In this document: one piece after another, positions 2,193-15,198 of the stretch
How the letters are laid out: each line of letters begins with the position of its first letter
Position numbering within the stretch: the first letter of the stretch is position 1
Assembly: GCA_023132135.1 (NCBI GenBank)
Contig: JAGLYR010000237.1
Location: 1 to 15,290 of the forward strand
DNA: 15,290 bases
Origin: Candidatus Eiseniibacteriota bacterium
Lineage (GTDB): Bacteria; Arandabacterota; Arandabacteria; JAGLYR01
Direction of reading: 5' to 3'
The notes under the pieces: model-generated
What the model was told of the DNA's origin: nothing
Seen by the model: the letters and a program-made list of their open reading frames with translations, nothing else
Database searches by the model: none
Made by a program: the position numbers and the translations under genes

Positions 2193-5100
2193 CTATTTCA
2201 TTCTCACGATCTTTCCGATCTCCGATGTTACAGCCTCCTCACCGGCCTTGGCCGCGATCTGGTACAGATAGACACCGTTGGCAACATCCTCGCCGTCCTC
2301 ATCCCGGCCATCCCACGGCACGTAGTTGTAGTCCGTCACACCATCGGGCTCGAGGGTATTGATCAGCCGACCGGCAACGGTGAAAATCCTGATGCGAACG
2401 GTTGCCGCCCGGGAGAGTTCGAAGGAGAACCCGGTCCTCTCCCCGAACGGACTGGGATAGGCCGTGACGGAATCGATCCTCAGCCGGTCGGCGACCCCAA
2501 GGGTCATCAGAATCCCTTCGAGAGAGGCCGCGGTCAGGACGAGATCATACAGGCCCGGATCCATCGTCTCCAGAGAAAAGGTCACACGCCAGCGCGCGCC
2601 CGTCTCATCCAGGGACTCCGCCTCCGCCGGGAGGATCACGGACCCTCCCGGACCCTCCAGCCTCACGGAGAAATCCCCATCGCTCACCGACCGTGGAAGG
2701 TGCACCTCCAGTATCCCATCCACGCCCGGCCTCACATAACTCCCATCAACAGCATGGCGTCCGTCGAACCATGCCTGGAACGAGAACCGCACCCGGAGAC
2801 GCAGCGAGACGGGCCGGCCGCTCAGGTCCTTTGCGTCAAACGCCAGTTCATAATTGGCCAGGCGGAGATCGTGCGGGTATTCCACGATCAGGACTCTCGC
2901 GTCCGCCGTCGTGCTGTCCCGAAGAACGTGGTAATCCATCCCCGGGGTGAGAACGGTCTCGGTGTCCCCATCCAGAATTCTCACCACAATGGACGTGCTG
3001 TCGACGGCTACTTCGTCTCCCACCCGCACCCGGACGTTGACCGTTGGCGAGTTGCTTCCCAGGATCACGGCGCCGTTCTCGACGGGCGCACCGTCGACAA
3101 ACGCCTCCATGGCGGGAGGCAGCGCGTCCATCCGGAGCGCCGGATCCCCCAACAGAACGTAGCGGGTGAGGAACGATCCCCCGTACTGACTCGCCGCAAG
3201 GTTCGCCACAGCCGCGGCCTGCACTTCTCCCAGTAGCCAGCGGGCGTGAGAGGCGCCTCCAGCGTCAACCCCCACCGGCGGTTCCTCAAAGAAGGCCCGA
3301 TACAGGAACTCCTGGTAGGCTGTGCTGACTGTGATCGCCTCAACACCGCTGCTTCCCAGCGCAGCCACCGCCCCCCCGCGGGGCAGGAACAGCATTTTCT
3401 CCAGCATGCAGTCCTGCACATAGGGACTGCTTTCCTCCACCCGGTCGAAATCGCCGAATTGGCAACCGAATCCGTGAACAAAATAGGGCCGCCCGTCGTT
3501 GGCGGAATACTGCGTCAAATCCGAACGCCACTGTCCGGACGTCACGGCCACACTGTCCACCAGCAGGTGCTCGTCGAACATTATGTTGGGGTGGCCGTGC
3601 CCCTGGAAACTGAAGAGGAGAACTCCCTCGTTGAGCGCGTCGAAGACGAGCGGGGTCACGCGCGCCCGGACCGAATCCTTCACACAGGCCAGCGAACCAG
3701 CGCCGATGCCCCCCTCAGAACAGACCCCGTGGAAACCATCCTCCAGCGTGCGACCGGTGTAGTCGGCCAGGAGAATCTCCCGGACTTGCAGGGGCGCGCC
3801 CGGACTCCGTTGCACAATCCCTGCCGAGACCCGCGCCGCCTCCTCGAAAATCTCCTCTGTGGAATGTCCGCACTGGTAGGGGTTGAACCCCGAGCACTGG
3901 TCGTCGCTCACCAGAAGCACCCGACCGCGCCAGGCGTCGTCCGCCGAAATCTCCTCGTAGGCCAGTATTTTCTCCACGACCGCATCGAGCTCCGCTCGAG
4001 AGCCCGCGGGCAGACGGCCCAGGTACGCGTCGAGGATCAGATCGTCATCGAACCGCACGTACCAGTTGTCCATGGCCGCCAGCTCGTTGCCGGAGCAGCC
4101 GGCAATGGAGGGAACGAAATCGGGCTCGCTCTCCGGATACACTCCGAGATGATCTTCGCTGGCGTCTCCCACGAGAAGGACAAACTGCGGCTTGGTGGTC
4201 CAGTGCTCGAATCCCCATTGGAGATAGCGCTTGATGGCGACGGGATTCTTGATTCCCCCGCTGAATTCATCGTAAACATCCATGATGCCGGCGATCCGCA
4301 CCTCGAACCCCTGGGCCTCCCGGTGGGAAACCAGGGGTTCGATCCCGTCGAAGAAGAGGGGATGGCAGATCACGACATAGTCGCCCTCGGCGTCAAAGAT
4401 GGAGGCGGGGTGGTACTCAACGATGTCTTCGCTTGGGAGTCTGCGGGCGCTTCCCCCGGTGATGGCAACCCAATTCCGTGACGAGGTCAGGCTGTCCTGG
4501 AACACAAGCCGATAGCCACCGCCGTCGGGAACCACCGCTCCGGCCGGAAGCTGCATCCACATTTCCCGGCCGGCTTCGCTGACATCGAACATGTGGACAT
4601 CTTCCCGGGTGAACCCGGCCACCTCCAGTCCCCAGGACCCGCTGGGGGCGGAGAAGACCAGATAGTCGTCTCTTGCTCTGAGATGGCGGTCGTAGCTGAT
4701 CTCAACCCAGTCCAGAAACGCGCCGCTGCGCTCGCCCTGGGTGGATCCGACAAGCAGCCAGCCTTTGTATTCGAGGAAGTTCTCGCCCTCCGTCAGGAAA
4801 CCCGCCGGGATCAGGGTATCCGATTCGTAGATGTACGAGGAGTAGCTCTGGAAGGAGAAGGAGTCAGGTTCTGTGGATGCGCCGATCCCGCTGGTGAGGC
4901 CGAGATGGAAAATGTGGGTCCCCATCTGGGAGCCCTGAAACCTGGCCCGGATTCCAGACGCCAGGGAAGAATTCACATCATGAACAGTGATCCCCAACGA
5001 CACCTCATGGGCCCTCCAGTTGGTCCAGAACCACTGCTCGACGTCACACTCGGGAGGAACGCCGTCCCGATCCGGTCCCTGGGGTTGAGCCCAGTAGTGA

Positions 5101-6233
5101 GTTTCCTCTTCGAAATGAAGCACTTCCGGAAACGTTCGGAGTGTTCCGGCCACCGCCCCCCGCCACACACGGGCCGTGTCCATCCTCGCCCCACCGGCCG
5201 GTCCCCGCCCCACCCAGTAGACGTTCTCTGCGCTGTAGCGGTCTTCGTAGCCGAACTCCCCAAAGGCATCCCGGAAGCTCCGGGCCCAGAAATAGAAACG
5301 GTCGCCCGGACCGAACAATCTGTCCCTGTCTTCGTCCAGCAGATGAATGGGGATCGGCTCTTCTTCCCAGGGCCGGTTGCCCTGCTCATCGTAGACCTTC
5401 CGGTAGACACCCAGATCCTCCGCGGGGAACGCCACGCTCAGGCCCCGAAGGTCCTCGTAGCGGATTTCATAGAGCCCGGTCTCGGCAATTCTGAGTTGAT
5501 GTTCATCCTCCCGCGGCGGACTGTCTTTGGCATCCGGGACAGGGGCCGGGCTTCGCCTCCACGATCTCGCGCTCTCATGATTCGCGACCAGCCGCCGGTA
5601 CATCCCTTCCCAGAGGGGCTCCCCGGCGGCGAACCCCAACTCCTTGTCCCCGATGCCTCCCTCCCACGTCACTTCCACGGTCACCTGTCTTGCCCACGTT
5701 CCCCCTTTCCCGGGTTCCCACCGGAAGGGAAAGACCAGGACCTGAACAACCCGCTGGAACCGCAACGTGGCAACCCAGCCTTCCCGAACCCAGTCGTCCG
5801 GATACAGACCCTGCCGGCCGTAGATCGCGCGGTCCGGCTCGCGGACCGGAATTGCCCGGACCCTCTCCCCGTCGCGACGGGGTTCGTGCCGTGGCGCGGG
5901 CGGGATGCGGAGCCCGGGAATCCGGCCACCTTCCTCCACCTCGATCACGCGAACCCGAGGCTCCACACCAAAGGGGATCCCCACCAGCATCCCGCGGACC
6001 GGGACCTGGGGATGCCCGACCTCGGTGTTGGGAATGCACCCATCCACCAGAACCCTGTGACAGGGTTGCCCATCGATTTCGATGTCTCTGACCTGGGGAT
6101 TATCAAAGCGGATACTGAGGACAACGCGGTTGGCGCCGGAGTTCACAACTTCCACCGCCGGCGCGGCCGCGCCGGAAACCGGGAACAGAGCGAAGACCAA
6201 GAGGGGCAATGTCGGCAAGCGGTTCCAGCGCAT
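2193..6233 (-). CDS. Secreted C25 (gingipain-like) cysteine protease with FlgD-like C-terminal domain
   Basis: 1346 residues from ATG 6233. A signal peptide (MRWNRLPTLPLLVFALFPVSG, then AAA) is followed by a propeptide-like region with VPVRGMLVGIPFGVEPR and ETGLYEIRYEDL, then a beta-rich region. The C25 catalytic domain spans about 616-1036. It has the probable catalytic His879 in SFQGHGH and Cys924 in HGFGCQFGDFD, followed by GAVAALGSSG, as in gingipains. Ig-like segments follow. The last 90 residues (YPSPFGE, VRIRIFTVAGRLI, WDGRDEDG, GVYLYQI) form an FlgD-like / type IX sorting-like domain, so the product is probably cell-surface or secreted. An upstream in-frame ATG at 6275 is disfavoured because it lies about 4 nt from the predicted transcription start, and ATG 6233 begins the cleanest signal peptide. 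murQ follows after 47 bp. An N-terminal paralog lies at 1-806. Peptide specificity cannot be read from the sequence. Confidence 0.92.
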   Translation of the reverse strand: MRWNRLPTLPLLVFALFPVSGAAAPAVEVVNSGANRVVLSIRFDNPQVRDIEIDGQPCHRVLVDGCIPNTEVGHPQVPVRGMLVGIPFGVEPRVRVIEVEEGGRIPGLRIPPAPRHEPRRDGERVRAIPVREPDRAIYGRQGLYPDDWVREGWVATLRFQRVVQVLVFPFRWEPGKGGTWARQVTVEVTWEGGIGDKELGFAAGEPLWEGMYRRLVANHESARSWRRSPAPVPDAKDSPPREDEHQLRIAETGLYEIRYEDLRGLSVAFPAEDLGVYRKVYDEQGNRPWEEEPIPIHLLDEDRDRLFGPGDRFYFWARSFRDAFGEFGYEDRYSAENVYWVGRGPAGGARMDTARVWRGAVAGTLRTFPEVLHFEEETHYWAQPQGPDRDGVPPECDVEQWFWTNWRAHEVSLGITVHDVNSSLASGIRARFQGSQMGTHIFHLGLTSGIGASTEPDSFSFQSYSSYIYESDTLIPAGFLTEGENFLEYKGWLLVGSTQGERSGAFLDWVEISYDRHLRARDDYLVFSAPSGSWGLEVAGFTREDVHMFDVSEAGREMWMQLPAGAVVPDGGGYRLVFQDSLTSSRNWVAITGGSARRLPSEDIVEYHPASIFDAEGDYVVICHPLFFDGIEPLVSHREAQGFEVRIAGIMDVYDEFSGGIKNPVAIKRYLQWGFEHWTTKPQFVLLVGDASEDHLGVYPESEPDFVPSIAGCSGNELAAMDNWYVRFDDDLILDAYLGRLPAGSRAELDAVVEKILAYEEISADDAWRGRVLLVSDDQCSGFNPYQCGHSTEEIFEEAARVSAGIVQRSPGAPLQVREILLADYTGRTLEDGFHGVCSEGGIGAGSLACVKDSVRARVTPLVFDALNEGVLLFSFQGHGHPNIMFDEHLLVDSVAVTSGQWRSDLTQYSANDGRPYFVHGFGCQFGDFDRVEESSPYVQDCMLEKMLFLPRGGAVAALGSSGVEAITVSTAYQEFLYRAFFEEPPVGVDAGGASHARWLLGEVQAAAVANLAASQYGGSFLTRYVLLGDPALRMDALPPAMEAFVDGAPVENGAVILGSNSPTVNVRVRVGDEVAVDSTSIVVRILDGDTETVLTPGMDYHVLRDSTTADARVLIVEYPHDLRLANYELAFDAKDLSGRPVSLRLRVRFSFQAWFDGRHAVDGSYVRPGVDGILEVHLPRSVSDGDFSVRLEGPGGSVILPAEAESLDETGARWRVTFSLETMDPGLYDLVLTAASLEGILMTLGVADRLRIDSVTAYPSPFGERTGFSFELSRAATVRIRIFTVAGRLINTLEPDGVTDYNYVPWDGRDEDGEDVANGVYLYQIAAKAGEEAVTSEIGKIVRMK

Positions 6234-6285
6234 CAAAATGTCCCGGCGTGTTTCGAACCCGAATGGGATGGACAAATCTCACGCT

Positions 6286-6477: not shown

Positions 6478-9400
6478 TTACTGTCCTCGATGCGTGGCCG
6501 CGTTCATCTGTTCAAGTACCTGGCGGAGTTGGGTCCGGCCCGGGGCCAGGCGCACGGCAATCTCGATTTCCCGGCGGGCTTCGTCCAGCTTACCCTGCCG
6601 GTACAGCGTGATGCCGAGATTGGCGTGGGCTTCCGCGTTCTCAGGATCCTTCTCGGCCGCGAGACGGAAGTAGCTGATGGCGCTCTCCACCTTTCCCTCG
6701 TTAAGGAGTGTCGCGCCCAGATTGACGTATGCATTGGCATGGTCGGGGTCCAGCCGGATGGCCTCACGGAACTCCTCGGAAGCTTCTACCCAGCGGCCCC
6801 GGCGCATGAGAATACTCCCGAGGTTGGTACGGATCCATGCCGACTCCGGCTTCTCTTCGATGGCCAGCCTGAACTCCGGGATCGACTCGTCCATCCTCTC
6901 CAGCCGGACGAGGGTCTCCGCCACCTTCTCATGAATACCCCCAATCCCGTTCCGCCTGGCGTAGGGCACGGCGCCCCTGTACAAATCGAGTGCCTTCTCG
7001 TAGTCCTCACTCTGGAAGTAGTAGTTGCCCAGGTTCACCCGGGCGGCAGCGGCTTCCGGGTACACGTCGATGGCCGTCTGGGAGAGCTGCCGGACCATTT
7101 CGGTGTCGCCCCTGCGGTGGTACCACCGGGCCAGAAGTACGTAGCACCGGTTGAGGTGCTCCCGCACCGTCATGTCGTCGGGGTACATTTCCACGGATTT
7201 CCTGAGGACCGGCACCGCCTTGTCGAACTTGCCCTCCGAGATGAGGACCTGGCCGTCCATCGAGTAGCGCATCGCTTCGAAACGCCGGCGCAGGTTGTCT
7301 TCGATCGCGGCCGCTTCCTCCGGATTGTCCGAGAAATGGTACACGGGAAGGCGCTCGTACGTCCGGTACTGCAGCGCCTCCGCGAGGTTGGACTCGATGG
7401 TGCCCACGAAAGCGGACTTGGGAGACGAATACTCCAGGATCGGATGGTTCTCGGTGTTGATGGGTGCGTCCCCGCAGTAGAGATCAAGGGACTTCTCATC
7501 CAGGATGAACCGGGCCAGGACGTCGTCCACCGTCTCAAACCCGACCTCCTCCAGCGATTTGCGTACCGGCTCGTACTCCATCCGCTTTTTCAGGGCAGCG
7601 TAGTCGACCCGCATGGGCTCTTCCGTGCCCAGCATCACCATGTCCACATCGGTGAACCAGACGCTGACCGCCGGGAACACCCGCCGGAAGGTCTGCACGA
7701 TCATCTTGAAATCCGAGTCGGACAGGTTGTACAGCGGCAGGAACTGGCACATCACCCCGCCCGGATTCAGTGCCGCCCTTGCCGCCTCGAAATACTCGAC
7801 GGTGTACAAACTCCCCGCGCCCCGCGTGTACGGATGGAAGGGATCGGCCGTGATGCAGTCGAATTTGTCCAAAGTCGCACGGAGGTAATTCCTGCCATCC
7901 CTGAGAATAATGTGGGCCTTGGGGTTCTCCATCACATAGTGGTTTGCCGCGCCGAACCGGCGCGTTGCCCCCATGATGCTCTTGGATAGCTCCGCGCAGC
8001 GGCCTTCATCCAGGGGATGCTGCATCACCGCCCCGAAGGTCACTCCAGCGCCGAGCCCAACGTTGATGGCTCTCTTGGGATTCGGGTGCAGGAGCAACGG
8101 CAGATGGCCCATCATCCTCTGGAGACGCATGTCCATCCGGACGGTGGAAGCCTCCAGCTTGCCGTTGATCACGATAGACCGCCTGCCGAATTCCTCGAAC
8201 ACGGCAGCCGTGGTCCCGATCCCTTCCCTGTAGTAGATCAGCTTTCCCTGCTCCAGCTGCTGGGCTATGTCCTCGGGGGCGGACGGGTCACGCCCCACCG
8301 GCATGAACTGGGCCGCTTTGTGGTACACACCCCAGAGCAGGACTTTCATGTCCCAGCGCGGCAGGTAGAGCAGGCACCCCACGAACACGGCCGCCGCCAC
8401 ACCCACGGAAACCAACCGCCGCCACGCCCGGATCCGGCCGTTCAGGAGGAGGATTGTACTGCCCAGGGCAATGCTCAGGCCCGCCCCCACGAACTCGCTT
8501 CGCTGCGTCCCCAGCAACGGAATGATCACAAAACCCGCCATGAGAGAGCCCAGGATGGAGCCCACCGTGTTCACGGCGTAGATGTTTCCAATGGCCCGAC
8601 CCAGCCGGCGGACGGACCCGGAAACCACCCGGGCCGCCACGGGAAAGCTGGCTCCGAACAACATGGTAGGGATCAACATCACGAGGAAGGCGGAAGCAAA
8701 CTCTACGACCGAGGTCTGCCCCCACTCCCGGTTGGTGAGCGCGAACATCTTCAGGAAAATGAAGGGCAGTTGTCCAAAGAGCGGGATGATGGCCAGCGCG
8801 CAGAATCCAACGGCCAGCTGGATGTATCCAAACAGGCGGGCAGGATCCCGCACCCGGTCGACGAACCTGGAAACGATGAGGCTTCCCAGGGCAATTCCGA
8901 AGAGGAACGTGGTCAACATACACGCGAACGCGTACGCGCTGGTTCCCAACACCAGCTGGAGGATCCGGGTCCAGACAACCTCGTAGAGGAGCGCCACAAA
9001 TCCGGACACACCCAGGCCGACAATGACGCCCACTTGCAGACGGCGGGGTGTCTCCACCACCGGAGTAACCTCCGGCTCCACCGCTTCCGGCTCTTCCTCT
9101 CCCGACACCGTGAAGCGCGGCCGCTTCGAGAGCACGTAGCAGCCTGCGCCCACGGCAAGATTAAACGCTGCCGCCACGTAGACCGTTGCGCTCAGTCCAA
9201 CGACCGGAATCAGGAAATATCCGGCAGCGAAGGTGCCCAGCACCGCGCCGAAAGTGTTGATGGAATACAGGGTCCCGACGCCGAACCCGATCGCGCTCCG
9301 GCGACTCACCACGAACCGGCTGAGAATCGGCAGCGTCCCCCCCATCATCGTCGTCGGGATCAACATCACGGCGAAGGAGACGACGAAACGGAGGACGTCG

Positions 9401-9792
9401 AAGGCAGCGCCCGTCTCCCCGAGATTGCGGAACAGGAAGATGTTGATGGCCTCGACCCTAAGGTAGATGAGTGGGGTCAGGAGAGCGAAGATCCCGACTC
9501 CCAGTTCCAGCCAGGCGTAGGTCCGCAGCAGGTTCCTGATCCGCGCCGTCCGGCGGCCCAGCAGGAAGCTCCCCAGGGCCAGTCCACCCATGTAGGCCGC
9601 GAGAACGGCGCTCACGGCTTCGGCCGTCACTCCAAACGCAAGGGTCAGGTACCGGGTCCACACTACCTCGTAGACGAGGCCCGCCGCTCCCGAAAGGAAG
9701 AAAAGGCCCAGAACCAGCCGGAATGTGCTTCCTTCCGGAAGCCCGTCCTGGTTGCTCCGGACGCCTGCAGATTGGCTCGGGTTGCCCTGCAT
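6478..9792 (-). CDS. Polytopic spermidine-synthase-like (MFS-type membrane) protein with C-terminal TPR domain
   Basis: 1104 residues. The first ~475 are membrane-embedded in two homologous halves, each opening with a (G/A)L(V/L)YEVVWTR motif (about residues 38-47 and 267-276) and containing G(L/I)ALGS. An acidic linker (SGEEEPEAVEPE) separates them. A spermidine-synthase-fold domain follows: YYREGIGTTAAVFEE, the SAM-binding-type loop NVGLGAGVTFG (~577), DGRNYL (~632) and SLYTVEYFEAARAALNPGGV. In the position of the aminopropyltransferase D-x-x-D signature it reads ADPFHP, so the second Asp is His and true spermidine synthesis is doubtful. Residues ~825-1085 are TPRs, including A.VNLG and A.ANLGITLYRQGKLDEA. 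Start ATG 9792 follows AGGAGA by four bases; the upstream in-frame ATG at 9831 has no such site. Seen: the fusion architecture. Known: such fused MFS/spermidine synthase-like proteins are widespread with mostly unknown substrates. No operon partner is apparent. Confidence 0.85.
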   Translation of the reverse strand: MQGNPSQSAGVRSNQDGLPEGSTFRLVLGLFFLSGAAGLVYEVVWTRYLTLAFGVTAEAVSAVLAAYMGGLALGSFLLGRRTARIRNLLRTYAWLELGVGIFALLTPLIYLRVEAINIFLFRNLGETGAAFDVLRFVVSFAVMLIPTTMMGGTLPILSRFVVSRRSAIGFGVGTLYSINTFGAVLGTFAAGYFLIPVVGLSATVYVAAAFNLAVGAGCYVLSKRPRFTVSGEEEPEAVEPEVTPVVETPRRLQVGVIVGLGVSGFVALLYEVVWTRILQLVLGTSAYAFACMLTTFLFGIALGSLIVSRFVDRVRDPARLFGYIQLAVGFCALAIIPLFGQLPFIFLKMFALTNREWGQTSVVEFASAFLVMLIPTMLFGASFPVAARVVSGSVRRLGRAIGNIYAVNTVGSILGSLMAGFVIIPLLGTQRSEFVGAGLSIALGSTILLLNGRIRAWRRLVSVGVAAAVFVGCLLYLPRWDMKVLLWGVYHKAAQFMPVGRDPSAPEDIAQQLEQGKLIYYREGIGTTAAVFEEFGRRSIVINGKLEASTVRMDMRLQRMMGHLPLLLHPNPKRAINVGLGAGVTFGAVMQHPLDEGRCAELSKSIMGATRRFGAANHYVMENPKAHIILRDGRNYLRATLDKFDCITADPFHPYTRGAGSLYTVEYFEAARAALNPGGVMCQFLPLYNLSDSDFKMIVQTFRRVFPAVSVWFTDVDMVMLGTEEPMRVDYAALKKRMEYEPVRKSLEEVGFETVDDVLARFILDEKSLDLYCGDAPINTENHPILEYSSPKSAFVGTIESNLAEALQYRTYERLPVYHFSDNPEEAAAIEDNLRRRFEAMRYSMDGQVLISEGKFDKAVPVLRKSVEMYPDDMTVREHLNRCYVLLARWYHRRGDTEMVRQLSQTAIDVYPEAAAARVNLGNYYFQSEDYEKALDLYRGAVPYARRNGIGGIHEKVAETLVRLERMDESIPEFRLAIEEKPESAWIRTNLGSILMRRGRWVEASEEFREAIRLDPDHANAYVNLGATLLNEGKVESAISYFRLAAEKDPENAEAHANLGITLYRQGKLDEARREIEIAVRLAPGRTQLRQVLEQMNAATHRGQ

Positions 9793-9796
9793 CGTG

Positions 9797-9802
9797 TCTC
9801 CT
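9797..9802 (-). promoter_or_regulatory. Ribosome binding site deciding the start at 9792
   Basis: AGGAGA on the minus strand sits four bases before ATG 9792. It outranks the longer in-frame ATG at 9831, which lacks a purine-rich site. Confidence 0.75.
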
Positions 9803-9907
9803 GAAACGTGGTCGGAGATAGCTGCACGCATTGTCTGGATATCGGCCGTGAATTCATGAGCCTATAGGATTGAGTGGGAGGGTTCAAGTGAAAGATCGAC
9901 AAGAGCA

Positions 9908-10057: not shown

Positions 10058-10774
10058 CTACCGGTACATCGCCTTGACGTTCGACCACGTGCTCGGCTCC
10101 ACCGCAGTGTTGCCGGGACAGTTCCAGTACGGAACCATAGTGTGATACGTCCCACCAATCGTGCAGCCAAACTCGGCCACAACGTTGTCTTCGACAAAGT
10201 CGGGGGCCGGGCCAAGAACGTAGTTGTGAGGATTGGTCGGGTAACTGTAGGCCGACGGACCGTACTCCAGCGTCAAAGGAAGATAGGTCGGAAACGCAGC
10301 GGAGCCCCAGATGAAATAGGCGAACGTAAGAACATCGCCACAGATCCCCGCCTCGGTGCACACACTCTCACCAAAGGCCTGGATCCCGCCACCAAGGAAC
10401 GGATTGCCCAGAATCAGCGAGGCCTCCGGACAGTAGTTCAAGAGAGGCTGCGGAGGCGCACCACGAACGGTAGGCCAACCAGCGATGCAGTACTCCACAC
10501 CGGTGATGCAGTCCACGTTGTATGCCAGGAACACGACATACACGTAGCCGTACGACGCCTCGAGCTCGGCCGCCTCTGCACTGTTGTCAATCATCGTGCA
10601 GTCCATAGGATGATACCCCGGATGCAGCGGATCAAAATTCGAGAGCTCCGGGCAATACAGATACTCAGAGCTTGCGACCGTATGCATCGCCAGCGAAGCG
10701 TCCGGGTTTGGACCCGCAAGCGCCGGTGCAGCGATCAGCATCAGGCCAAAAGTAATTGCCAGCATTCTCTTCAT
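10058..10774 (-). CDS. Secreted Cys-rich protein with TWSxxKAxYR tail, family not recognised
   Basis: 238 residues. A signal peptide (MKRMLAITFGLMLIAAPALA) ends before GPNP. The mature domain is paralogous to the N-terminal domain of the protein at 13207-15198: shared features are AGPNP.A.LAMH.VAS, VEY...GWP..RGAP, a YC.EA..(L/V)LG.P segment, and PHNYVLGP.PD.VED followed by GC.IG. Several Cys residues are conserved between the two, suggesting disulfides. The last ten residues, TWSNVKAMYR, match the TWSAIKAKFR near the C-terminus of the other protein. ATG 10774 is chosen because it opens the signal peptide; longer in-frame reading up to 10885 would cover intercistronic hairpins. The gene lies 120 bp behind the dockerin-like gene and is probably cotranscribed with it, with a strong terminator after it. 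I do not know its function; export is inferred from the signal peptide. Confidence 0.82.
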   Translation of the reverse strand: MKRMLAITFGLMLIAAPALAGPNPDASLAMHTVASSEYLYCPELSNFDPLHPGYHPMDCTMIDNSAEAAELEASYGYVYVVFLAYNVDCITGVEYCIAGWPTVRGAPPQPLLNYCPEASLILGNPFLGGGIQAFGESVCTEAGICGDVLTFAYFIWGSAAFPTYLPLTLEYGPSAYSYPTNPHNYVLGPAPDFVEDNVVAEFGCTIGGTYHTMVPYWNCPGNTAVEPSTWSNVKAMYR

Positions 10775-10894: not shown

Positions 10895-11629
10895 CTAGGG
10901 ACACGGATCCGTCCACGGATCGCAGTTAGCCGGATCAGGCTCCTTGGGATGTCCGCAGCAGTCCATATAGGCGGTGGAGAAAGCTCCGAAATCGGAACCG
11001 GAGATCTCACCCCAAACACCCTGCGGGACGGGGGTCACCACCCACACGAAATCAGCATCCGGAGAGGGAATGCCGTACAACACCCAGTCGTTGTACGCAG
11101 TGGAAAACCGTCCAAAGTCAGAACCCCGGACATCACCATTGGGCACCAGATCGAAGGAGTTCATGAGCACCTCGATCGGGTACGGAATATCTCCCTCAAC
11201 CAGGCCCACAGTCACATGGACCGGACAGGTCATCGACGGAGCACATTCCGGGCCCACGGTAATCCTCAGCACCATTTCGCCAAGAGCATTCGTCTCCGTA
11301 GACTGGCATACCACCGTATAGTGCCCTTCGCACCCGGAGCAATTACCACCAGGCCCACCGCCAAGATTCGGATAGTCGGGATGCGGGATCACGGTGAACG
11401 TCATGTCGCTGCACAGATAACCCCCGACAGGGGCGTCATCCCCATTGTAGAGAACCACGGTCACATCCTGGTACCGCTCTGCAGCCGTGGTACCGTACGG
11501 ATGATCGTATGGATCTGCGTTGATAAGAGCCGAGTCCACGACGCAGTGCGCGGGAGACGGCACATTAGCCCATGCACTTGATGCAGCAAAGGCAATGAGT
11601 AAGACAACGGCCAAGCCGTAACGGCGCAT
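10895..11629 (-). CDS. Secreted protein with two C-terminal dockerin-like GSDFGxFSTAY repeats
   Basis: 244 residues. The signal peptide MRRYGLAVVLLIAFAASSAWA precedes NVPSPAHC. The middle is beta-rich with a Cys/Gly patch (GGGPGGNCSGCEGHYTVVC) and no family I recognise. Near the end are two repeats, NGDVRGSDFGRFSTAY and WGEISGSDFGAFSTAY. They have the spacing and D-F-x-x-F pattern of type I dockerin duplicates found in secreted proteins of related uncultured bacteria, but most calcium-ligand Asp/Asn positions are missing. The protein ends Cys/Pro-rich (CDPWTDPCP). ATG 11629 is supported by GGAGGTG five bases upstream. It is the first gene of a unit with the Cys-rich protein at 10058 and would be read from the promoter at 11966-11995 through a leader of about 330 nt. 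The dockerin relation is an inference; no cohesin is visible here. Confidence 0.8.
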   Translation of the reverse strand: MRRYGLAVVLLIAFAASSAWANVPSPAHCVVDSALINADPYDHPYGTTAAERYQDVTVVLYNGDDAPVGGYLCSDMTFTVIPHPDYPNLGGGPGGNCSGCEGHYTVVCQSTETNALGEMVLRITVGPECAPSMTCPVHVTVGLVEGDIPYPIEVLMNSFDLVPNGDVRGSDFGRFSTAYNDWVLYGIPSPDADFVWVVTPVPQGVWGEISGSDFGAFSTAYMDCCGHPKEPDPANCDPWTDPCP

Positions 11630-11634
11630 TATTG

Positions 11635-11642
11635 CACCTCCT
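11635..11642 (-). promoter_or_regulatory. Strong ribosome binding site for the gene starting at 11629
   Basis: AGGAGGTG on the minus strand lies five bases before ATG 11629. It fixes that start rather than the start six codons upstream. Confidence 0.85.
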
Positions 11643-11959
11643 TGCAAACTGACTTTCGAATTATCTTTCGAACCATGTACTGCTCCCTATCGCGTTCGTT
11701 CTCTAGATTTGCAGGTTTGGCCACCGCAAGAAGGTCGGTTTACGTACACCAGTGCCCGACCAAGACACTGGCCGGAAGACCCCAGCCACCTCCTTTCGTA
11801 TCGAAACCCTTGTCGAAGGAGTCAGGTTGAAGCGCTGTGTCTTCGAAACCGGACCCTCTCGCGCGTGAGAAGCCATATCCCTCATACAGATGCCCAGCGA
11901 CCTCCATGATCCATATAGGGAGATCCACCTGTACGGGAACCGATCACTCCTCAATCACG
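11643..11959 (-). promoter_or_regulatory. Long 5' leader with possible interleaved hairpins (pseudoknot)
   Basis: This stretch separates the promoter at 11966-11995 from the gene at 11629. On the minus strand CCAGTG (11771-11766) can pair with CACTGG (11754-11749), and GGTCGG (11761-11756) with CCGACC (11738-11733). The two helices interleave, which is the topology of an H-type pseudoknot. Upstream is a small hairpin TTTCG-ATA-CGAAA followed by GGAGGT. Near 11660-11680 the plus strand carries a direct repeat CTTTCGAA. I match none of this to a named riboswitch, and small ORFs here look random. Confidence 0.35.
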
Positions 11960-12688: not shown

Positions 12689-12764
12689 GGGCGAATAGCT
12701 CAGTGGTTAGAGCACCTGCCTTACAAGCAGGGGGTCACAGGTTCAAATCCTGTTTCGCCCACCA
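12689..12764 (+). tRNA. tRNA-Val (anticodon TAC)
   Basis: The full cloverleaf can be drawn: acceptor GGGCGAA/TTCGCCC, D arm GCTC...GAGC, anticodon stem CCTGC/GCAGG with loop CTTACAA, variable GGGTC, T arm ACAGG-TTCAAAT-CCTGT, and an encoded ACCA end. The anticodon TAC is at 12722-12724 and reads GUA-type valine codons. It follows the small membrane protein gene by 7 bp. No clear terminator follows; a 5-bp stem at 12768-12783 lacks a T-run. Confidence 0.97.
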
Positions 12765-13206: not shown

Positions 13207-15198
13207 ATGAAACGGATGAGCCGTTTGGCTATCGCGGTTATGGTTATGACGACGGCGGTCGTGGTTCCGGGTTTCGGCGCGCACCCCGCCGCGGCCGGAC
13301 CGAATCCCAATGCGAAGCTGGCCATGCATCTCGTGGCATCGGATGATTATCTCTGTTGTGACGATCTCGCGCCTGCGAGTTCTGCGGACATCAACGTCGC
13401 GCTGAGCATAGCGGATCTTGCCGTCACAGACTACTGCGGCTATATTCTCTTCCTCCCCTACGACATTGACCTGTGCATCCGCTGCGTCGAGTATTACGTC
13501 ACCGGCTGGCCCATGGGGCGGGGTGCACCTGCCCTGGCGCTGCCAACCTACTGTGAGGAAGCGCTGGTTCTGGGGGACCCCTACGAGGCCAACGGGGGAG
13601 AGGGCGGCATTGCCTGTATCGTGGGAACCACGTGTCTTGGTGATCCTCTCTCGCACCTCGCTCCTTTCGCGTACGCGTTTTTTGACCTGTCCTCATACAC
13701 GGGCTACTTCCCCATTGCTCCCGACTACAGTCCCAGTACCTACACGTATCCCTACGACCCTCACAACTACGTACTGGGTCCGGGACCGGATTCTGTTGAA
13801 GACCCCGTGGTCGAGGAGAAGGGATGTGTGATCGGAAGTAGCGGGTCCGATCAGACAATCCTGCTGGTTGCTCCGAACGGTGGCGAAACACTGCAGGTCG
13901 GATCGACTCCCCCCATCGAGTGGGAATCCACCGGTTTCGAAATCGCGCGAATCGAGTACAGCGCCGACGGTGGCGCCACGTGGCAGGACATTGCGACTGT
14001 TTCTGCCAGCGCGAGGTTCTACCTGTGGACAGTGACCGACGAGCAATCGACAGATTGCTTCGTGAGGGTATCCGACGCCGTGGACGGCGATCCCTCGGAC
14101 ATGAGCGATGCATCCTTCACGATCTCCTATGAGTACGCACGGGTCCTGCGCGTGCCTGAGGAGTACCCGACAATCCAGTATGGGATTTACGCTGCGGCCC
14201 CGGCGGATACTGTGGTTGTGGCGCCGGGCGAGTACTTCGAAGGATTGGCGATGAAGGCGGGAGTTGCTCTGAGATCCGACGCCGGCAGCGCGCAAACGAT
14301 TATCAACGGGATCGGCCACGACCATGCCATCTCTTTTGACAGAACCCTCGATTCCGACGGCCTGGTCGATGGCTTCACCATCACGGGCGGAAACGCCTCT
14401 GGACCTGGCGCCGAGGCGCAAATGGGTGGGGGTATCCTCCTGGTGGGCTCCGGCGGGACGATCAGCAACTGTGTGATCACGGGCAATCAGGCGACGATCA
14501 TGGGCGGCGGGATCGCACTCGTAGCCATTACTGAGGTGACCATTGTCGACTGTGTGATTTCGGACAACATGGCCGCAGAGGGTGGGGGAATCTACTTCGG
14601 CGGTTCGGATCAGATCACGGTGCTCTCTACGGAGATCGTCGACAACACCGCCACGGGCCTCGGTGGTGGCGCGCTCTGCTGGATCAGCTCTCCCTCGATT
14701 TCCGGTTGCGTCTTCGCCCGCAATTCCGCGCAGGATGGGGGTGGGTTGCATTGCTGCTACCAAGCCAGCCCTTCCCTGAACGAATGCACGTTCACGCACA
14801 ACGCAGCCTCCATTGGAGGCGGGATCGCGTGCAACGTCCTGTGCTGGCCGACGCTTCAGAATACGCTGATCGTGTTCAGCACCCAGGGCGAAGCGGCCTA
14901 TTGCCACGAGTGTACTTTCCCTCTGCTCCTGTGCTGCGACGTCTACGGGAACGAGGGAGGCGACTGGGTGGGGTGCATCGAGCATCAGCAGGGGAGCAAC
15001 GGCAACTTCTCCGAGGATCCCCTCTTCTGCTGCGTGTCGAGCGGCGATTACCACCTGCAACCGCAGTCTCCCTGTGCGGATCATCCCATCTGTGGTCTTG
15101 TGGGCGCACTGGGTGTGGGCTGCACGGGACCGAGTCGAATCGAGCAGGCGACCTGGAGCGCGATCAAGGCGAAGTTCCGCCAACCGGCGCAAGACTGA
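13207..15198 (+). CDS. Secreted right-handed beta-helix protein with Cys-rich N-domain, Ig-like domain and TWSxxKAxFR tail
   Basis: 663 residues. The signal peptide (MKRMSRLAIAVMVMTTAVVV, cleavage near AAAG) is followed by four parts. Residues ~31-210 are a Cys-rich domain paralogous to the whole protein at 10058-10774. Residues ~217-308 form an Ig/Fn3-like domain (VAPNGGETLQVGS, EYSADGGATW, VRVSDA). Residues ~312-610 are a parallel beta-helix: the opening VPEEYPTIQYGI and VVVAPGEY.E precede at least five rungs of the type GGGI......I..CVI..N, and it closes with DPLFCC...GDYHLQP.SPC. At 649-658 is the tail TWSAIKAKFR, followed by QPAQD. Beta-helices of this kind usually bind or cleave polysaccharide, but no catalytic set can be assigned. 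ATG 13207 has GAGGTGA at 6-bp spacing; ATG 13201 is too close to it. The gene ends one base before a hairpin repeat. Unusually many Cys, including CC pairs, suggest disulfides outside the cell. Confidence 0.85.
   Translation: MKRMSRLAIAVMVMTTAVVVPGFGAHPAAAGPNPNAKLAMHLVASDDYLCCDDLAPASSADINVALSIADLAVTDYCGYILFLPYDIDLCIRCVEYYVTGWPMGRGAPALALPTYCEEALVLGDPYEANGGEGGIACIVGTTCLGDPLSHLAPFAYAFFDLSSYTGYFPIAPDYSPSTYTYPYDPHNYVLGPGPDSVEDPVVEEKGCVIGSSGSDQTILLVAPNGGETLQVGSTPPIEWESTGFEIARIEYSADGGATWQDIATVSASARFYLWTVTDEQSTDCFVRVSDAVDGDPSDMSDASFTISYEYARVLRVPEEYPTIQYGIYAAAPADTVVVAPGEYFEGLAMKAGVALRSDAGSAQTIINGIGHDHAISFDRTLDSDGLVDGFTITGGNASGPGAEAQMGGGILLVGSGGTISNCVITGNQATIMGGGIALVAITEVTIVDCVISDNMAAEGGGIYFGGSDQITVLSTEIVDNTATGLGGGALCWISSPSISGCVFARNSAQDGGGLHCCYQASPSLNECTFTHNAASIGGGIACNVLCWPTLQNTLIVFSTQGEAAYCHECTFPLLLCCDVYGNEGGDWVGCIEHQQGSNGNFSEDPLFCCVSSGDYHLQPQSPCADHPICGLVGALGVGCTGPSRIEQATWSAIKAKFRQPAQD

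Follow-up and report, generated by a model that had tools for sequence, protein, structure and literature searches.

Two predicted exported proteins encoded in the stretch of DNA analysed here (15,290 nucleotides from a Candidatus Eiseniibacteriota bacterium, henceforth the window) end in nearly the same ten residues, TWSNVKAMYR and TWSAIKAKFR. The question raised by this locus is whether so short an end reflects only the common descent of two proteins or is a signal in its own right, as the initial annotation had proposed.

Two exported paralogs in the window

The two proteins have the N-terminal ~200 residues in common and are paralogs over that region. The tail that had been described on both of them, of the form TWSxxKAx(Y/F)R, was recovered on each. 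The larger protein had been thought to differ by an Ig-like domain and a beta-helix; the beta-helix, situated between the N-domain and the tail, was recognised by Pfam, whereas the Ig-like domain had no Pfam match. An AlphaFold model of the window protein built from two sequences had a mean pLDDT of 27. A near-identical second copy of the 663-residue protein, unchanged over its last 15 residues, is found on another contig of the genome (C301; locus L045, 1-5500) and is a recent duplication within the genome.

Table 1. Coordinates, in the window, of the tailed proteins and of the C25 peptidase.
Feature	Positions	Strand	Evidence or detail
Tail TWSNVKAMYR and stop codon of the 238-aa protein	10058..10090	-	tail 10090-10061, stop 10060-10058
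Predicted exported 238-aa carrier, signal peptide MKRMLAITFGLMLIAAPALA, Met at 10774	10058..10774	-	no match in Pfam and NCBIfam scans
Tail TWSAIKAKFR, then QPAQD and stop codon	15151..15180	+	pattern search
Predicted exported 663-aa carrier: N-domain common with the 238-aa protein, beta-helix, tail	13207..15198	+	Pfam Beta_helix
C25 (gingipain/PorU-type) peptidase, 1360 aa, FlgD-like (type IX) tail at 2241-2438	2193..6275	-	domain models

Both classes of C-terminal tail are thus present in the window, the FlgD type on the C25 peptidase (192 bits against the PorU model, cut-off 420) and the short one on the two paralogs. Adjoining the 238-residue tail gene, an exported 250-residue protein (10895-11647, minus strand), with neither Pfam match nor tail, carries two GSDFGxFSTAY repeats reminiscent of dockerin repeats. 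The window also encodes a 1117-residue fused MFS-like/spermidine synthase protein with a long TPR region (6478-9831, minus strand), and a tRNA-Val (anticodon tac, 12689-12764, plus strand) lies between both tail genes.

The tail and its carriers in the host genome

We searched the host genome (3.4 Mb in 345 contigs) with the pattern W-x-x-[hydrophobic]-K-x-x-[YF]-R, no stop codon being required, and used the same pattern reversed as control; the counts given here come from such pattern searches. There were 55 matches compared to five for the control, and 40 compared to one once a stop codon was required. Nearly all of them (52 of 55) end 0-6 residues before the stop codon, and 40 have Arg as the very last residue, while the three internal matches correspond to an ABC-type permease and to two frames of non-coding appearance. 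Positions left free in the search were nevertheless constrained: position +2 was G, S or T in all 52 tails, position -1 was T or S in 51 and position -4 was acidic in 41, the fuller motif being [ED]-x-[TSA]-[TS]-W-[GS]-x-[IV]-K-[AS]-[LM]-[YF]-R. The codons used are variable (Arg is encoded by all six, CGN and AGR, and Ser by both AGY and TCN), therefore selection acts at the protein level. Allowing one mismatch added C-terminal variants with the final R replaced by K (six) or H (two); no variant in this genome altered the W or the aromatic residue, and none exchanged the K for R. The tail has no transmembrane segment, no beta-sandwich and no Cys in the motif. Tails alone, as query fragments partly approximate upstream of the motif, had no match in Pfam or NCBIfam; the full natural carrier proteins were scanned separately.

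After removal of the tail, 51 carriers from the host genome fell into 20 clusters without mutual BLAST similarity, and 145 carriers from many genomes into 50. By a home-made score, a signal peptide was present in 39 of 42 carriers and in 27 of 121 neighbouring open frames (Fisher p ~2e-16). The enrichment at the C-termini of unrelated exported proteins that the initial annotation had named as support is thus apparent, and we found neither of the patterns that it had set against a signal, i.e. restriction to a single family or equal frequency inside cytoplasmic proteins. The fact that both window proteins are paralogs could suggest chance, or an end inherited within one paralog family. Given the excess over the control, the 20 unrelated families and the occurrence in other phyla (see below), we rejected this explanation, which is hardly conceivable.

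A few carriers have a lipobox in place of the ordinary signal peptide (L006, twice, and L027; judging by their sequences also L119, L146, L149 and L159). Since such lipoproteins are already membrane-anchored, they count against the tail being simply the sole anchor of its protein. The domains preceding the tail are diverse and include beta-helix, lamin-tail (LTD), PPC, proprotein-convertase P-domain, thioester domain, pectate lyase, MAM-like, NHL and choice-of-anchor J and W. Choice-of-anchor domains are named for their alternative C-terminal anchors. In one carrier (L039:5350-6006) the choice-of-anchor W model matched over its whole domain with 172 bits (cut-off 45). The tail comes immediately after it, at the place where, as the name of the family implies, other choice-of-anchor W proteins bear another anchor. 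These families (NCBIfam NF041928 choice_anch_W and NF038128 choice_anch_J) are therefore exported domains found here with the tail in the anchor's place; they describe carrier domains, whereas the tail would be the signal itself.

Distribution across genomes and a single-copy carrier

All eight genomes examined from the phylum of the window contained 10-40 tails (stop codon required), the controls giving 0-1. Among 47 genomes of the Eisenbacteria-type phylum, 45 had at least one tail and 36 at least four. The other 11 had 0-3, ten of them (G385-G394, phylum of L062) being neighbours in the genome table; these may form a sub-group in which the system was lost or did not expand. In a collection of 84,980 species the strict pattern was found in at least 118 stretches and, apart from a few odd labels, nearly all of the matches listed are labelled as FCB-group lineages or simply as bacteria, with Eisenbacteria, Krumholzibacteriota, Latescibacterota, Ignavibacteria, KSB1, Delongbacteria, Cloacimonadota, Zixibacteria, Neomarinimicrobiota, Hymenobacter and Adhaeribacter among them. 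Fifty of the strict-pattern genomes form two groups by tail number, many-tail genomes with 6 to 82 copies and few-tail genomes with 1 to 4. In a sample of Bacteroidota, 24 of 296 genomes had exactly one tail, always of the form WG[ST]IK[AS][MI]FR, and none had more.

Few-tail genomes mostly have as carrier a member of a single family of ~140 residues, made up of a signal peptide followed by an FN3-like sandwich and the end RTWGSIKAMFR. This exported protein, ending in TWGSIKAMFR, is near-universal at one per genome in Ignavibacteria, KSB1, Delongbacteria and Hymenobacter (loci L056, L057, L072, L079, L085, L127, L128 and others). Because these loci were picked for having the tail, conservation of the W, K and R in them is partly built in. 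The positions left free, to which this does not apply, were also conserved, with S after WG in 37 of 40 and I and F in all 40 even though V and Y were allowed. The full-length family was absent from the many-tail genomes: the FN3-like matches there were all partial, lay within larger proteins and stopped short of the tail. It is therefore the tail, and not the protein, that is common to both groups. In single-tail genomes the tail gene is surrounded by housekeeping genes, which vary from one lineage to another (judged by eye, SpoIID-like, Maf, RuvB, HAM1 and uridine kinase), and in many-tail genomes the sole widespread class of neighbours was proteins with FlgD-like tails (19 loci). No dedicated partner gene was found among the conserved neighbours in either group.

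AlphaFold predicted a confident beta-sandwich for the FN3-like family, with the tail as a separate helix (residues 119-130, pLDDT 63-67), and a fold search with this model retrieved generic Ig/FN3 folds only. When the tail is plotted on a helical wheel, W, I, M and F share one face, which K and R adjoin, and G, S and A lie opposite. As modelled, this arrangement is compatible with a docking helix on a linker.

Known C-terminal signals and a possible role of the tail

A first comparison is with the C-terminal domain (CTD) of the type IX secretion system (T9SS), the FlgD-like or Por secretion tail, which occurs in the same group of phyla, in the same genome and on the same kinds of carrier domains. 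We found 125 FlgD_ig matches in the host genome, where beta-helix proteins end in either an FlgD-type tail (at least 14) or the short one (10, plus two degenerate forms), and never in both. The CTD is an Ig-like beta-sandwich of 70-100 residues (PMC11285876), whereas the tail has ~10 residues, is a predicted helix and sits on smaller proteins (median 239 aa, as compared to 869-aa open frames for proteins with FlgD tails). Neither did any of 21 carriers from the host genome match FlgD_ig, and the tails alone matched nothing.

Such an exchange on beta-helix proteins would also be expected if the tail were a short alternative T9SS signal, directing small cargo to the translocon SprA in place of the 70-100-residue sandwich. 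SprA was detected in 60 of 65 tail genomes, including the host, in which a SprA_N match (G000:C275, E 3e-20) reveals a T9SS translocon. In Bacteroidota it was present in 24 of 24 tail genomes and in 204 of 272 others (p = 0.0014, without kinship correction). This co-occurrence is suggestive only: SprA is nearly as common in genomes without the tail and so does not decide for a type IX route; the 204 tail-less Bacteroidota indicate that SprA alone does not demand a tail. Two tail-bearing Cloacimonadota had no SprA_N match, some carriers are lipoproteins, and T9SS transport has been described as needing a structured CTD of 70-100 residues, unlike short unstructured signals (PMC11285876). On balance, we regard a type IX role as possible but less likely than not.

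Signals such as PEP-CTERM/exosortase, GlyGly-CTERM, MYXO-CTERM and LPXTG share with the tail a short C-terminal block, found on many unrelated signal-peptide proteins in many copies per genome. Copy numbers have a median of 8 per genome for PEP-CTERM (PMC1569441) and reach dozens for MYXO-CTERM (PMC11980579). PEP-CTERM and its kin combine a motif with a transmembrane helix and a basic cluster, whereas here a motif of ~9-14 residues runs to the stop codon and has no matching enzyme. In keeping with the initial annotation, which saw no match to LPXTG, PEP-CTERM or the FlgD-like type IX tail, the defining features of these systems are absent from tails and carriers. There is no PEP motif, transmembrane helix or basic cluster of the PEP-CTERM kind and no hydrophobic stretch after the R-stop; MYXO-CTERM has an invariant Cys, a transmembrane helix and an Arg-rich end, and the tail has no Cys in the motif and no transmembrane segment; and inspection of the 52 tails revealed no LPXTG motif, which in sortase substrates is accompanied by a transmembrane helix and a basic end.

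A variant of PEP-CTERM deserves separate mention, because the sequence PxSTW locally resembles some PEP-CTERM starts and nine of 29 many-tail genomes had a strong exosortase match. Exosortase (PF09721) was found in none of the eight genomes from the phylum of the window, nor in most of the other many-tail genomes; PEP is not conserved and the protein ends at the motif, with no transmembrane helix after it. Failing on both enzyme and architecture, this very improbable variant was rejected. Co-occurrence with one particular processing enzyme, which had been suggested as a check, is thereby excluded for exosortase, and the type IX translocon does co-occur with the tail but non-specifically.

What the tail does display are the general traits of a sorting signal, namely C-terminal confinement (52 of 55) and unrelated carriers with signal peptides (20 clusters; 39 of 42 by the home-made score). 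Together with tail exchange, strict side chains and a basic last residue, these form the pattern that defined PEP-CTERM (PMC1569441) and MYXO-CTERM (PMC11980579). The case for a function as sorting tag is hence stronger than that for placing the tail in any named system, for each of which a defining feature is lacking. Searches of open-licence PMC papers, whether for the motif or for sorting and type IX secretion in these phyla, returned nothing on the tail, and we found no model or annotation for it either. As a C-terminal sorting signal the tail would represent a new architecture within a known class.

We consider it likely that the tail is a C-terminal address or docking tag of exported proteins, read by a putative receptor in the envelope. 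The tail, its position, the constraint at the amino-acid level, the unrelated exported carriers and the exchange with type IX tails are all observed; from them we infer a helix, its docking, a receptor and a destination. Docking is preferred because the tail includes neither a transmembrane helix nor a CTD-like domain and because no exosortase was found in the phylum. The carrier would leave the cytoplasm by Sec and lose its signal peptide, upon which the last 9-14 residues, ending in R-COOH, may form a short amphipathic helix on a flexible linker, in which W, I/V, L/M and Y/F make up one face, bordered by K and R, the small residues lie opposite and S/T forms a cap. This helix would dock into a periplasmic or outer-membrane receptor, which would put the protein in its final place or keep it there; that place is most likely the cell surface. 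A parallel can be drawn with the encapsulation peptides of microcompartments, whose short amphipathic helix, borne on a flexible linker, attaches cargo to a receptor, although these act in the cytoplasm and the present carriers are predicted to be exported. The proposal of a sorting or anchoring signal is thus supported as a class, the choice between the two being a matter of interpretation. Counting against an address tag, the location of the carriers is a prediction, and lineages with one carrier would need to maintain a receptor that serves this protein alone.

Two other roles were considered. The invariant Lys could form a covalent bond with peptidoglycan, or with some other polymer of the envelope, much as in Braun's lipoprotein, whose C-terminal Lys is attached by L,D-transpeptidases. 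Amino-group chemistry would require precisely such a Lys, without one-step changes to R, and the basic and aromatic neighbours at the C-terminus recall the end of Lpp. The Lys of the tail is however internal and not terminal, and conservation is just as strong at the final R and on the W face, which fits docking as well; we deem this linkage unlikely. The tail might also be recognised by a periplasmic C-terminal protease or chaperone of the PDZ type and govern turnover instead of location, for which the free C-terminal end in 40 of 52 tails would be suitable. Its presence on many unrelated secreted structural domains and its swaps with type IX tails argue against this, and the C-terminal protease tags known to us are less strictly conserved, so that a turnover tag appears quite unlikely. 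Lys-linked attachment and turnover control are both less supported than the address tag.

Going further, the address tag may tentatively be seen as part of a separate envelope-sorting pathway with a dedicated receptor, ancient in the FCB group and independent of type IX and of every sortase, which would have retained just one client in Ignavibacteria and in Cytophagales and would have expanded to dozens in Eisenbacteria-like phyla. Earlier C-terminal sorting signals have more than once been the starting point for the discovery of new enzymes (sortases, exosortase, rhombosortase, myxosortase), and also of type IX secretion. Here the tail is widespread in poorly known environmental phyla, its architecture is unlike that of earlier signals, and it labels dozens of proteins per genome that had no previously known place. 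Its single copy in the cultured Hymenobacter and Adhaeribacter opens the putative receptor to direct search there.
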